From positions 930,001-994,000 of the forward strand of contig NZ_CP114542.1 of NCBI RefSeq assembly GCF_027271155.1: DNA of 64,000 nt, read 5' to 3'. Positions 59,920-64,000 of the stretch are shown here, one piece after another. Source of the stretch: Brevundimonas subvibrioides (GTDB taxonomy: Bacteria > Pseudomonadota > Alphaproteobacteria > Caulobacterales > Caulobacteraceae). The position numbers were made by a program, and so were the translations under genes. The notes under the pieces were generated by a model that saw only the letters and a program-made list of their open reading frames with translations, was not told where the DNA came from and did no database searches. Position 1 is the stretch's first letter. Each line of letters opens with the position of its first letter.

Positions 59920-61080
59920 TTAATGGGGCAAGCCGGGATCGCGGGTCCATGCCGTGCCGCTGAGGGCCGCCGCCCGGCCCTGATCGAACAGTCCCTGCAT
60001 CCACGCCCGATCGAAGCGCAGGTTGTTCTCGCTGGACCCCACGGGGGCCATGGCGACCGACAGCGACAGGCCGCGCAGCCGGGCGAACTGGTCGGCGGCC
60101 ACCACGCTCATGCGGGTGGAGGCCTTCATCATGGCGTCCAGGCCCCGGGCCGCGACACCCACGCCACTGTAGGATGCCACGCTGAACCGCGCGTCGGGCC
60201 GCCCGTTGATGGCGACCCACAGCCGGCCGCCGGCGGCGTTCGCCAGCAGGTCGGGGTCCAGCATCAGACGTTCCGGCGCGATGAAGAAGTTGGCGGTGGT
60301 CCGGCCGTCGGCGTGCAGCTCCCGCACCGTGTGTCCGTCGTGCGCCAGCGCCACGAAGACCGGAGGGAAGACGCCGGGGATGCTGGCCGAGGCCGTCAGG
60401 ATGTCGATGAAGACCTGGCGTCGATCCGGGCGATCCGATGCCGCTAGGGCCCCCATGTCCCAGACGACCTGACCCTGGGTGTCCAGGCTCGTCGTGGCGA
60501 CATACAGTCTGCGTCCGGCCCGGTGACCCGCCGCGATCCGGTCCAGCAGATCGTCGGTGACCGAGGCGGCGACAAGGTCGCGCAAGGGGCGCTGACGAAA
60601 CAGGCCCGGACCCACCAGCGACATGGCCCAGCGCGCCTGCAGCAGACGGTCGGAGCGGCCATCGGTGAAGGCGGCCTCCAGCGCGGCGTCCTCATCCAGG
60701 CCGACGAAGGCGAAGGGCGCGATCAGGGCCCCGGTCGAGACGCCGGTGACGACCTCGAACTCCGGTCGGTCGCCATGCTGGCTCCAGCCGACCAGCAGGC
60801 CCGCGCCATAGGCCCCGACCGCGCCCCCGCCGGACAGGGCCAGCAGGTCGAAATGTCCGTCTCGTGAGCTCAGGGCGGCCGCGTTGGCGTCGGCCACATA
60901 ATGGTCGCGGTCTGCCGGTCTCTGGAAGTCCAGCCGGATGTCCGGACTGGCTGCGGCGATATCGTCATAGGTAAAGGCTGTGCGCGACATCGTCTGGCAG
61001 CCGCCCAGCAGCAGCGCGCTGATCAGCCCCGCGATCGCGACGGCACGACGTATGATGGCGGACCCCATGCCAACGCCCAT
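59920..61080 (-). CDS. Patatin-like phospholipase, predicted lipoprotein
   Basis: The 386-residue protein has a signal peptide with an LGGC lipobox (Cys28), so it is membrane anchored in the periplasm. The patatin domain has the oxyanion loop LALSGGGAVGAYGAGLL (about 81-96), the nucleophile S115 in VVTGVSTGALIAP and the aspartate in HADGRTTANFF for the catalytic dyad (the usual DG-G/A is present as DGR). It would cleave lipid acyl esters. It is divergent from dnaG. Confidence 0.9.
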   Translation of the reverse strand: MGVGMGSAIIRRAVAIAGLISALLLGGCQTMSRTAFTYDDIAAASPDIRLDFQRPADRDHYVADANAAALSSRDGHFDLLALSGGGAVGAYGAGLLVGWSQHGDRPEFEVVTGVSTGALIAPFAFVGLDEDAALEAAFTDGRSDRLLQARWAMSLVGPGLFRQRPLRDLVAASVTDDLLDRIAAGHRAGRRLYVATTSLDTQGQVVWDMGALAASDRPDRRQVFIDILTASASIPGVFPPVFVALAHDGHTVRELHADGRTTANFFIAPERLMLDPDLLANAAGGRLWVAINGRPDARFSVASYSGVGVAARGLDAMMKASTRMSVVAADQFARLRGLSLSVAMAPVGSSENNLRFDRAWMQGLFDQGRAAALSGTAWTRDPGLPH

Positions 61081-61160
61081 ATCAGGGGTCTGTGACGCTA
61101 TCCACCGCCATGACGTCGTCCTTGCTTCGCGTCGGGACGCAATGGCGTTAAGGATTGCGG

Positions 61161-63029
61161 GTGCGTTTCGATGACCGCTTCCTGGAAGAACTGAAGGCCC
61201 GCCTTCGCCCGTCCGACGTGATCGGCCGGTCGGTGAAGCTCAAGCGTCAGGGACGCGAGTGGGTGGGGCTGAGCCCCTTCTCGAAAGAGAAGTCGCCGTC
61301 CTTCTTCGTCAACGACGACAAGGGGTTCTTCCACGACTTCTCCTCCGGCAAGCACGGCGACGTCATCAGCTTCCTGCAGGAAACCGAGCGGCTGAGTTTC
61401 CCTGAGGCGGTCGAGCGGCTGGCGGCCGAGGCGGGGATGCAACTGCCGGCCGAGGACCCGCAGGCCGCCGAGCGTGAGGCGAGGAAGCAGGGCCTGTCGG
61501 ACTGGATGGACCTGGCGCAGAAATGGTTCGCGGCCAACCTGCGCCGGTCGGTCGGCAAGGCGGCGCGGGAGTATCTGGAGCGGCGCGGCCTGCCCGAGGA
61601 TCAGTGGGACCGGTTCGGACTGGGCTATGCCCCGAACGACCGCGAGGGGCTGAAGACGGCGCTGGTCCAGCGGGGCGCGAAGCCGGGCGACCTGGTCGAG
61701 ATGGGCATGCTGATCGCGCCGGAGGGCGGCGGCGCGCCCTATGACCGGTTCCGCGACCGGCTGATGTTCCCGATCCTGGATGCACGCGGGCGGCTGGTCA
61801 GCTTCGGTGGCCGGGCGATGAACCCCGACGACCGGGCCAAATATCTGAACGGGCCGGAGAGCCCGCTGTTTCACAAGGGGGCCACCCTCTATGGCCTGCC
61901 CGAGGCGCGGCGCATCCTGGGGGCGGAATCGAAGTCGACCCAGAGCGTGATCGTGGTCGAGGGCTATATGGACGTCATCGCCTGCCAGCGCGCGGGCCTG
62001 CCGGCCGTGGCTCCGATGGGCACGGCCCTGACCGAGGAGCAGATGGCCCTGCTGTGGCGGGTCTCTTCCGAGCCGATCCTGTGTTTTGACGGCGACGGGG
62101 CCGGGCAGAGGGCGGCCTATCGCGCCATCGAGCGGGCCTTGCCGCTGCTCAAGTCCGGCCGGTCGTTCCGGTTCGCCTTGCTGGAGGGCGGCCAGGACCC
62201 CGACGATATCCTGCGCGACAAGGGGGCACCGGCGCTGCGTCAGGCCATGACCGAGACACGGCCGTTCGCCGAGGTCCTGTTCAGGCGCGAGGCCGAGGTC
62301 GAGCCGCTGGACACGCCCGAGCGCCGCGCGGGGCTGAAGGGCCGGCTGCGCACGGCCGCTGCGGCCATCGCCGACAAGGATCTGGCCGAACAGTATCGCA
62401 GGGAACTTTTCGACCGGTTCGACGCCCTGTTCCCCGCGCGGGCGCAGCCCCCGCAGCGCGCCCGACAGACCGGCGGACGCTGGCGACCCGGCCCGCCACC
62501 AAAGCTGGGCCAGACGGCCGAGGGGGCTCAGGCCATGCGGGCGCTGAACCGATCCATCGAGCCCGTTGCAGCCGCTCTGGCCCACGGGGCAATCGAAGAC
62601 CCCGAACGTATTGATGATCATCTGGAAGAGATATCGTCGCATGGATTTGGCGACCCGGCCCTGGACGGGCTGGCGCAGGAGCTGGTGCGATTGCGGTTCT
62701 CCAGCAGAGCCGTTGATGGTGCATCTGCGCGGCGAGAGCTTGCCGGTGCTGGATTGGATGCCCTTCTGGTCGAGGTCGACAAGGCGGCTGGAAAATCCGG
62801 TGCTCCTTTCCTCCTGTCGAGTCTGTCAAGAGAGGAAGCCACTTCGCTTTGGTCCCGCACTCTTGAACTCGTCATCCGTTTGGGAGCCCTCGACAAGGCA
62901 ACCGAGATGGCAAAACAGGAACTGGGGTTGCGGTCCGGCAGCGACACTTTTGCGCGCCTGAAAGCGGAGCGGGACGCGCTGCGACGTGCGGTCAATGCGG
63001 AGACGGATTGGCGCGGGGGGCGAGCTTGA
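61161..63029 (+). CDS. dnaG: DNA primase, zinc ligands lost, foreign-looking C-terminus
   Basis: GTG 61161 is chosen because AAGGA lies 7 nt upstream; TTG 61155 is in frame too. The 622-residue primase has an N-terminal domain (VGLSPFSKEKSPSFFVNDDKGFFHDFSSGKHGD, 35-67) in which all four CHC2 zinc ligands (expected C38, H41, C59, C62) are replaced by Ser, Ser, Asp and Ser. The TOPRIM core reads VIVVEGYMDVIACQRAGLPAV and LCFDGDGAGQRAA. From about residue 480 on, and clearly after 513, the code is AT-richer; a second version of this C-terminus lies after vapC (see findings). Confidence 0.95.
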   Translation: MRFDDRFLEELKARLRPSDVIGRSVKLKRQGREWVGLSPFSKEKSPSFFVNDDKGFFHDFSSGKHGDVISFLQETERLSFPEAVERLAAEAGMQLPAEDPQAAEREARKQGLSDWMDLAQKWFAANLRRSVGKAAREYLERRGLPEDQWDRFGLGYAPNDREGLKTALVQRGAKPGDLVEMGMLIAPEGGGAPYDRFRDRLMFPILDARGRLVSFGGRAMNPDDRAKYLNGPESPLFHKGATLYGLPEARRILGAESKSTQSVIVVEGYMDVIACQRAGLPAVAPMGTALTEEQMALLWRVSSEPILCFDGDGAGQRAAYRAIERALPLLKSGRSFRFALLEGGQDPDDILRDKGAPALRQAMTETRPFAEVLFRREAEVEPLDTPERRAGLKGRLRTAAAAIADKDLAEQYRRELFDRFDALFPARAQPPQRARQTGGRWRPGPPPKLGQTAEGAQAMRALNRSIEPVAAALAHGAIEDPERIDDHLEEISSHGFGDPALDGLAQELVRLRFSSRAVDGASARRELAGAGLDALLVEVDKAAGKSGAPFLLSSLSREEATSLWSRTLELVIRLGALDKATEMAKQELGLRSGSDTFARLKAERDALRRAVNAETDWRGGRA

Positions 63030-63041
63030 TTTCCTTGGCCT

Positions 63042-63302
63042 ATGCCTCGACCTATGCTAGTCAGAGCCGTGCAGAATTCGCGTTCAGTCAAATTGTTCAG
63101 AAACGGCCGGAACCAGGCCGTAAGAATTCCCCGCGAGTTCGAACTTCCGGGCGAGGACGCCGTCATGAGGCGGGAGGGGGATCGTCTGATCATCGAACTG
63201 CCGGAACGGATCGGTTTGTTGGCCTTGCTTTCGACTCTCGACCCGATTGACGAGGATTTCGCCCTGATCGAAGACGCCCGGCCCGAGGACGTCGATTTTT
63301 GA
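63042..63302 (+). CDS. vapB: VapB-type antitoxin (AbrB-like)
   Basis: The 86-residue protein (ATG 63042; ATG 63054 and GTG 63069 are alternatives, none with a strong ribosome site) has the swapped-hairpin start QNSRSVKLFRNGRNQAVRIPREFELPGEDAVMRREGDRLII typical of VapB. A short acidic tail (LDPIDEDFALIEDARPEDVDF) would block the toxin. It begins 12 bp after the dnaG stop and its TGA overlaps the vapC start. Represses its own operon in known systems. Confidence 0.92.
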   Translation: MPRPMLVRAVQNSRSVKLFRNGRNQAVRIPREFELPGEDAVMRREGDRLIIELPERIGLLALLSTLDPIDEDFALIEDARPEDVDF

Positions 63303-63703
63303 TCCGGTATCTTCTCGACACCAACATGCTTTCGGATCTCGTTCGCCGGCCGCTCGGAGGCGTTCGACAAAGGGTCGCCCTGGTCGGTGAGGCGGCCGTG
63401 GGGACCAGTATCGTTGTCGCCGCCGAGGCTCGCTTCGGTGCCGCCAGGGCGTCGTCCGCGCGCTTGACAGATCAGCTTGAAAGAATCCTGTCCGAGCTCG
63501 TGGTCCTGCCTTTCGAGGCCCCGGCCGACCGCCATTACGCGGATGTGCGCTCCGCCCTGACACGTGCAGGCACCCCTATCGGTGCTAACGACACGCTGAT
63601 CGCGGCCCATGCCTTGGCGCTGAATTGTATTCTGGTAACCGACAACGAGCGTGAATTTGGTCGGGTTTCCGGCCTGAGCATCGAGAATTGGTTGCGGGCG
63701 TGA
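63299..63703 (+). CDS. vapC: VapC-type PIN-domain toxin
   Basis: The TTG-started 134-residue protein is a PIN-domain RNase: acidic residues D7 in RYLLDTNMLSDLV, E43 in TSIVVAAEARFGAA, D99 in PIGANDTLIAAHAL and D114 in ILVTDNEREFGRV. It would cut tRNA or rRNA when VapB is lost. The start overlaps the vapB stop (TTGA). The stop (TGA 63701-63703) overlaps a GTG that opens the dnaG-like fragment. Confidence 0.95.
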   Translation: MIRYLLDTNMLSDLVRRPLGGVRQRVALVGEAAVGTSIVVAAEARFGAARASSARLTDQLERILSELVVLPFEAPADRHYADVRSALTRAGTPIGANDTLIAAHALALNCILVTDNEREFGRVSGLSIENWLRA

Positions 63704-64000
63704 ACTCCGTCCAGACGCTTGACAGCGCGGCCCTGCGTCGCCATCTCGCGTCCTCCGGACACGACGCTTTAGTGCGCGAGGTCGAGAAGGCGGCGGCAAA
63801 GTCCGGCGCGCCTTTCCTGGCCGCGAATGCGCCCCTCGCCGAGGCAAGGGTCCGGTGGTCGCAAGGCTTCGATGCCCTGACCCGCGTGGCGGGTCTGGAC
63901 GCGGCGCTGGCGTCAGCGAAATCGGGGGCGGATCACGCCTTCGATGCCTCGGCCTTCAGTCGCCTGAAGGCGGAGCGCGATGCGTTGCGACGAGCCATCA
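63700..64000 (+). pseudogene. Second copy of the dnaG 3' end, stranded behind vapC
   Basis: From GTG 63700 the frame is open to the window edge (100 codons). It reads VNSVQTLDSAALRRHLASSG, EVEKAAAKSGAPFLAANAP, and ends SRLKAERDALRRAI. This aligns over its whole length with the last 110 residues of DnaG (ASARRELAGAGLDALLVEVD, KAAGKSGAPFLL, ARLKAERDALRRAV) but is clearly diverged. It has the high-GC codon use of the region. It has no primase or TOPRIM part, so it is a displaced C-terminus; translation by GTGA coupling to vapC cannot be excluded. Confidence 0.82.

Follow-up and report, generated by a model that had tools for sequence, protein, structure and literature searches.

Recurrent exchange of the dnaG 3′ end in Brevundimonas, bounded by a putative rpoD promoter embedded in dnaG and with vapBC as a probable passenger

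Integrative elements of one kind repair the 3′ end of the gene they enter, supplying a replacement end while the old one remains downstream. Restriction-modification units have been described to insert with a long duplication of the target (Nobusato 2000, Furuta 2010, as presented in PMC3874152), a heat-inducible promoter of the sigma factor gene lies inside dnaG of E. coli (Taylor 1984, as cited in PMC2824700), and one of several rpoD promoters of Caulobacter is mentioned in PMC5760092. Here we describe a locus with a partial likeness to these systems, located at the 3′ end of a 64,000-nt stretch of the Brevundimonas subvibrioides genome (the window), in which the DNA primase gene dnaG is followed by a vapBC toxin-antitoxin module, a second dnaG 3′ end and rpoD. 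Our reading, to which we give a probability of about 0.72, is that the dnaG 3′ end has been exchanged recurrently in the genus, that an rpoD promoter lying within the dnaG coding region bounds these exchanges, and that vapBC travels as a passenger. The genomes compared are given as G-codes, G000 being the source genome.

The two dnaG ends of B. subvibrioides

The dnaG gene (61155..63029; this and all other features of the window given here lie on the + strand) matched DNAG_N, Zn ribbon, Toprim and TIGR01391 in family searches of G000 DnaG. The original prediction had described dnaG with an AT-richer tail, then vapB and vapC, then a second tail in the same orientation, and this arrangement was confirmed by the open reading frames and by the GC content at third codon positions (GC3). 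GC3 was 0.898 in dnaG codons 1-420, 0.744 in codons 421-510 and 0.614 in codons 511-624, with 114-codon windows inside codons 1-510 ranging from 0.746 to 0.930; it was 0.686 in vapB, 0.709 in vapC and 0.788 in the second tail. The second, tail-only dnaG frame opens at 63688 in the dnaG orientation and extends beyond the window end; the G000 genome is one contig, in which this tail closes with its own stop directly 5′ of rpoD. The in-frame and second tails share 46 of 98 residues (47%, E 1e-23).

In the nearest relatives, G079 and G120, dnaG runs uninterrupted to rpoD with 92 nt between, and the sequence into which it runs is that of the second G000 tail, as had been anticipated for relatives without vapBC. 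The second tail of G000 together with the intergenic DNA matched G079 at 410/419 nt and G120 at 406/420 nt, and the dnaG body of G000 was 96.4% identical to that of G079 over the first 1230 nt. Across codons 421-516 the identity of G000 to G079 was 75-86% per 12 codons, as compared with 80-91% between G079 and G120, and past codon 516 it fell to 27-52%, except in two conserved blocks at 83-86%. Because the second tail and the body both match G079 while only the 3′ part of dnaG departs, the downstream copy is, as judged by sequence, the native end pushed aside, as originally proposed, while the tail now in frame is foreign; the downstream copy is not a local duplicate. A tree of tails (87 rows, the 26 ordinary genus rows being hand-picked; its columns are few, and there is a program warning about long branches) pointed to different origins as well, since the two G000 tails do not cluster together and the stranded one groups with G079, G120 and G046. 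The stranded native end thus occupies 63712..64000 and continues beyond the window to its stop and then rpoD, and dnaG appears to be a hybrid of a native body (about codons 1-420) and a foreign C-terminal part. The hybrid primase was expected to be tied to a toxin; the hybrid gene stands, and the tie is one of genetic linkage only.

The foreign part had been placed from about 62698 onward. It probably begins earlier, within 62415-62698, and is probably larger than the last 110 codons; we give it as 62415..63029, with an uncertain left edge and strong divergence from about 62698, as read from the drops in G079 identity and GC3. A left breakpoint exactly at 62698 was dropped: across codons 469-516, G000 and G079 are 75-80% identical, against 80-91% for G079 and G120. 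The foreign tail showed a weak structural likeness to the DnaG C-terminal domain, and a sequence search of the tail profile against solved structures gave unrelated matches only (E 0.00018 or worse). With regard to relatives carrying both vapBC and a similar tail, only distant ones were found, the closest being G005, its sister in the tail tree, with 59% identity over the last 165 aligned residues. At the search sensitivity used, no DNA match was found in plasmids for window 62417-63028 or in phages for window 62417-63703.

Displaced dnaG ends across the genus

A DnaG match was obtained in 128 of 131 genus genomes searched and none in the other 3, and the loci of all 128 were compared. They were classified by the position of a short motif, CTTGAC-N15-CGCCATCT, considered in the next section: as ordinary when the motif lies within dnaG (94 loci), and as swapped, with the old end left at rpoD, when the motif lies past the dnaG stop (29) or dnaG is located away from rpoD (3: G056, G124 and G067). 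The 2 remaining loci, G112 and G095, end before the dnaG stop and are uninformative. Most relatives are therefore ordinary (94/128), and the arrangement is not one that all of them share. In G124, about 25 kb separate dnaG from rpoD, and the two genes point in opposite directions; G056, with a tail of the same family, has rpoD on a different contig. G013 shows a dnaG frame change near residue 445, either real or an assembly error; it was counted among the 94 ordinary loci and treated as not swapped in the tree that follows.

In an rpoD tree of 125 rows, built from shorter pieces and with five rows under half filled, 21 changes between the ordinary and swapped states were needed, at least 15 of them forced by starred branches; an earlier tree of 113 rows had given 17 changes, 11 of them forced. 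G000 is nested among ordinary genomes. Exchange of the dnaG 3′ end is thus recurrent in the genus, and G000 is one case of it.

In the tail tree, the 32 swapped genomes fell into three groups by their in-frame tails, A with 21 rows (support 99, starred), B with 7 (G000, G005, G028, G067, G097, G023 and G106; support 87, not starred) and C with 4 (G056, G124, G101 and G072; support 98, starred). As to the stranded tails, 11 of 29 still read as DnaG, as judged from frames by eye (15 are open by length alone). In the tree, 10 of 11 stood beside the native tails of the expected relatives, G100 doing so only loosely. Nucleotide identity of a stranded tail to the uninterrupted tail of a relative was 100% over 395 nt for G128 with G018/G070, 99.4% for G039 with G022, 97.8% for G000 with G079, 97.2% for G110 with G022, 97.0% for G021 with G085, 96.4% for G007 with G040, 94.6% for G030 with G057, 92.9% for G087 with G114, 91.9% for G025 with G094 and 90.9% for G005 with G117. 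Older stranded tails (G100, G004, G027, G028, G097, G106 and G023) were 83-88% identical to relatives, and the most decayed ones matched in short pieces only. Left breakpoints, read in 30-codon blocks against the nearest ordinary relative, differed between events: that of G030 fell at about codon 270, those of G039, G128, G110 and G004 at about 300, and those of G007 and G021 at about 330, and they lay at about codon 420 or later for G000 and G005 and at about 480 or later for the G028 group; such variation is as expected from homologous crossover at different dnaG positions.

The DNA between dnaG and the motif differs from locus to locus. This slot, the only one inspected and covered in the 29 loci with the motif past the dnaG stop, held intact vapBC in 11 of the 32 swapped loci (G000, G005, G021, G128, G110, G004, G027, G028, G097, G106 and G072), broken vapBC in 2 (G039 and G100), a methyltransferase only in 1 (G101) and no cargo in 15. 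G072 carries an FkbM methyltransferase in addition to vapBC, and the G101 enzyme is FkbM-type (family search limited to G204 and G072). An addiction module as the only cargo, as first proposed, is hence true of G000, while other loci hold other cargo (an FkbM methyltransferase, a histidine kinase). In G000, vapBC lies between the foreign tail and the native end, as proposed, but intact vapBC occurs in only 11 of the 32 swapped loci and is therefore not their common denominator; it appears to be a frequent yet optional passenger. G027 and G028 are close relatives with similar vapBC and stranded tails, and their in-frame tails belong to groups A and B, respectively, which suggests that a tail was swapped again upstream of a resident vapBC.

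The right join and the motif in front of rpoD

In the 18 swapped loci that were compared with ordinary relatives, native sequence starts 0-11 nt 5′ of CTTGAC-N15-CGCCATCT. In G000, where the motif lies at 63718..63746, the contiguous native match opens 6 nt (against G079) or 7 nt (against G120) before CTTGAC, which places the right join between incoming and native dnaG DNA at 63704..63711. The dnaG stop is located 10-34 nt before the motif in the 15 cargo-free swapped loci. Of the genus loci, 126 could be classified, and 123 of these had the motif with at most one mismatch at 14 fixed positions; the remaining 3 are the dnaG-moved loci.

In ordinary genomes the motif stretch codes for LDxxxxxRHL within dnaG. 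The codons CTT GAC were used in 105/105 dnaG genes whose motif had one mismatch or none (93 of the genus, 12 of other genera), although CTT makes up 5.8% of the other leucine codons in these genes, and the CAT codon of the motif likewise occurred in 105/105 as against 32% of other histidine codons; these counts are conditional, being drawn from related sequences selected by the motif, with G056, G124 and G151 (3 mismatches) and the frame-broken G013 excluded. The DnaG frame is lost in 18 of 29 relics, as judged by eye, and there the motif is kept while most else drifts. Blocks GAGGTCGAGAAGGCGGCGGC and GCCCCTCGCC behind the motif are also partly kept in decayed tails (e.g., window 63777-63818 and equivalents). 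An RNA structure in the conserved leader past the motif was unsupported (consensus energy -5.49, covariation term -0.14). In G056, G124 and G067, whose dnaG has moved, the motif (0-1 mismatches) is retained 344-368 nt 5′ of rpoD, and dnaG-tail remnants are recognisable after it; in G151, a genome of another genus, rpoD retains it as well (344-414 nt upstream when taken with the three genus cases), with no clear dnaG-tail remnant behind the motif. As the motif remains in front of rpoD even where dnaG has moved away, it is an element of rpoD.

The motif resembles a heat-shock promoter. Read as CTTGAC-N16-GCCATCT, it agrees with the RpoH consensus of PMC4843759, there given as CTTGAA-N15-16-CCTATAT and CTTGCC-N15-16-CCTATCT, at 5 of 6 positions of the -35 and 4-5 of 7 of the -10 element, with fitting spacing. 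CTTGA-N18-CCATNT had 7 matches in the G000 genome and its backward control 0. A long frame starts 29-81 nt downstream of 5 of the 6 other matches and 270 nt downstream of the sixth, and the five nearer frames were read by eye, with no family search, as thioredoxin-like, methionine aminopeptidase, DEAD-box helicase, glutamate-cysteine ligase and phasin. The -10 part fits more closely to another RpoH form, CCCATNT. From this resemblance we infer that the motif is an RpoH-type rpoD promoter embedded in dnaG, and that the stranded end serves as the promoter and leader of rpoD. Most likely, the old dnaG end persists because the rpoD switch sits in it.

The motif was also found in other genera of the family. 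Among the first 18 loci fetched, it was present with at most one mismatch in 17, within dnaG in 12 and past the dnaG stop in 5, the 18th being G151. A further 20 loci were taken, chosen largely for extra matches; 19 had dnaG, and 13 of these showed the motif with no more than 2 mismatches. In G204, the slot between dnaG and the motif with its tail remnant is taken by a hybrid histidine kinase gene in the other orientation. Judging from G204 and the loci with the motif past the dnaG stop, displaced dnaG ends are therefore not limited to the genus. Swaps thus recur throughout the genus and are present in other genera as decayed forms; the motif is not found everywhere.

The vapBC insert, rival explanations and known systems

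The vapBC module itself seems, from its sequence matches, to be ordinary, and only its location is unusual. VapC (63299..63703) matched the PF01850 PIN family at 65.8 bits (cut-off 23.6, E 6.9e-18) and VapC of PDB entry 3tnd (E 4.9e-18), and its match to NF047863, the equivalog for tRNA(fMet)-specific VapC, reached 105.8 bits, under the cut-off of 140. The acidic residues D7, E43, D98 and D115, which we take to be the catalytic residues of VapC, are invariant across 11 dnaG-linked VapCs. VapB, encoded directly 5′ of vapC (63042..63302, start codon uncertain), matched PF04014 MazE_antitoxin at 25.5 bits (cut-off 24.7), and its NCBIfam matches fell below their cut-offs. The original prediction saw no gap before vapB; its annotated start is 12 nt past the dnaG stop. 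Operator-like repeats GGCCTATGCC / CCTATGCTAG surround this start (63037..63062), GGCCTATGCC overlapping it, and may act as an operator; similar stretches lie 5′ of several unlinked vapBC. PADLOC gave no match for VapB or VapC; it gave two matches of dnaG to reverse-transcriptase-system models. No integrase or recombinase is present in the G000 insert, as had been noted, only vapB and vapC lying between the tails. In addition, attachment-type near-identical end repeats were not found at the locus: the longest direct repeat is 42 nt, 86% identical, at 62771-62812 and 63777-63818 (1006 nt apart) within a coding block shared by the tails, and the remaining ones are 12-18 nt. Recombination between the 42-nt repeats could in principle delete vapBC and restore the native tail. 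No tRNA target was found within 11 kb around the locus, and no Rfam family reached the gathering score in window 61000-64000.

We propose that the exchange would proceed as follows. In the ordinary arrangement, an RpoH-type heat-shock promoter for rpoD would lie within the dnaG coding region. Incoming DNA would bring a dnaG 3′ part, followed in some cases by further genes (vapBC, FkbM methyltransferase), and would be joined on the left by homologous crossover at some point of the dnaG body and on the right at most about 11 nt upstream of the embedded promoter. Only recombinants that retained both a whole dnaG and the rpoD promoter would be viable, and because survivors need both, the recipient's dnaG end would be kept as promoter and leader of rpoD. 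The retained native end would then decay as protein, and the new dnaG end would be released from the embedded promoter. A tentative extension of this scheme, which we hold to be less likely than not, is that recombinase-free cassettes made of primase ends A, B or C plus optional addiction cargo circulate in the genus and enter at the upstream edge of the embedded promoter; the promoter would set the insertion point and force the retention of the old end, and the helicase-binding end of primase would be the diversified trait.

Several observations weigh against a promoter-bounded exchange. Native sequence reaches 5-11 nt 5′ of the motif in G000, G007, G030, G005, G025 and G087; homologous crossover within the motif, tried as the right join, fails for these six recent loci. 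In the other compared loci, the native match of 0-2 nt upstream of the motif may be chance. The motif does not stand alone in its conservation, as other third positions 56-101 nt past its start are mostly 0.89-0.99 conserved in ordinary genes, and in 6 of the 19 further loci of other genera (G289, G293, G295, G297, G303 and G251, the stretches of G295 and G251 not including rpoD) it was not found within 2 mismatches. The counts of state changes carry no direction, so that some may be returns to the ordinary state. Finally, no donor was found, the G000 tail having, besides itself, at most 56% identity across 118 matches.

Among other explanations, the one with the best claim, though still an unlikely one, makes vapBC the driving part: an element composed of a dnaG 3′ end and vapBC, with no recombinase, would spread by addiction while repairing its target, and loci lacking vapBC would be former carriers. 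It would account for the 13 of 32 swapped loci whose slot holds vapBC, broken copies in G039 and G100 included, and it agrees with a VapC tree (n=52) in which the 11 dnaG-linked VapCs fall in one part, mixed with a few unlinked ones, a single clade not being rejected (p-AU 0.241). However, the slot is empty in 15 of the 32 swapped loci and holds only a methyltransferase in 1; tail family and vapBC do not strictly travel together, the VapCs of G027 (tail A) and G028 (tail B) being close; and in other genera, related vapBC were not beside dnaG among the listed matches with both coordinates.

That the dnaG end was duplicated in tandem, with vapBC inserted between the copies and the in-frame copy diverging fast, would explain why the tails are homologous (46/98), but for G000 the comparisons made here refute it: body and stranded tail share 96-98% identity with G079 while the in-frame and stranded tails agree at only 47%, their GC3 values differ, and the in-frame tail clusters with the tails of other swapped genomes and not with its own stranded tail. 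As a general account we give it hardly any weight. Equally improbable is an ancestral order of dnaG, vapBC and tail that was repeatedly lost. Its presence in several branches of the genus would fit, but G000 is nested among ordinary genomes, the motif lies within dnaG in 12 of the 18 first-fetched loci of other genera, and the stranded tails are 90.9-100% identical to relatives' uninterrupted tails in ten cases.

Recurrent exchange at an embedded rpoD promoter would account for the retention of a seemingly useless duplicate gene end, and it suggests a possible rule for the entry of foreign DNA into an essential operon, at a site 5′ of a promoter concealed in the gene before. The frequency of the swaps indicates that the primase C-terminal end is often exchanged in nature, and the cargo makes it testable whether toxin-antitoxin modules are drivers or riders of such exchanges. 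Short dnaG-like frames before rpoD may accordingly be promoter leaders and not genes. A link between an embedded promoter and dnaG-end exchange was not found in literature term searches, among the matches listed.

One likeness is to the macromolecular synthesis operon of E. coli, where a stress promoter for the main sigma factor also lies inside dnaG (Taylor 1984, as cited in PMC2824700), the Brevundimonas promoter, in contrast, being predicted only. The VapBC module resembles other type II systems in having a MazE-type antitoxin gene that overlaps a PIN-domain toxin gene by 4 nt. With restriction-modification units inserted by long target duplication, as they appear in PMC3874152 (Nobusato 2000, Furuta 2010), the locus shares an addiction-type pair between target copies and the lack of a transposase or integrase; in contrast, the Brevundimonas copies are not one sequence, one being foreign (47% amino acid identity) and one native, and many slots are without an addiction module. 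Like the integrative elements that restore a 3′ end, the dnaG swap brings a new 3′ end and leaves the old one downstream, but it does so without an integrase or attachment repeats, with a variable left boundary, and with a replacement that has diverged at the protein level.

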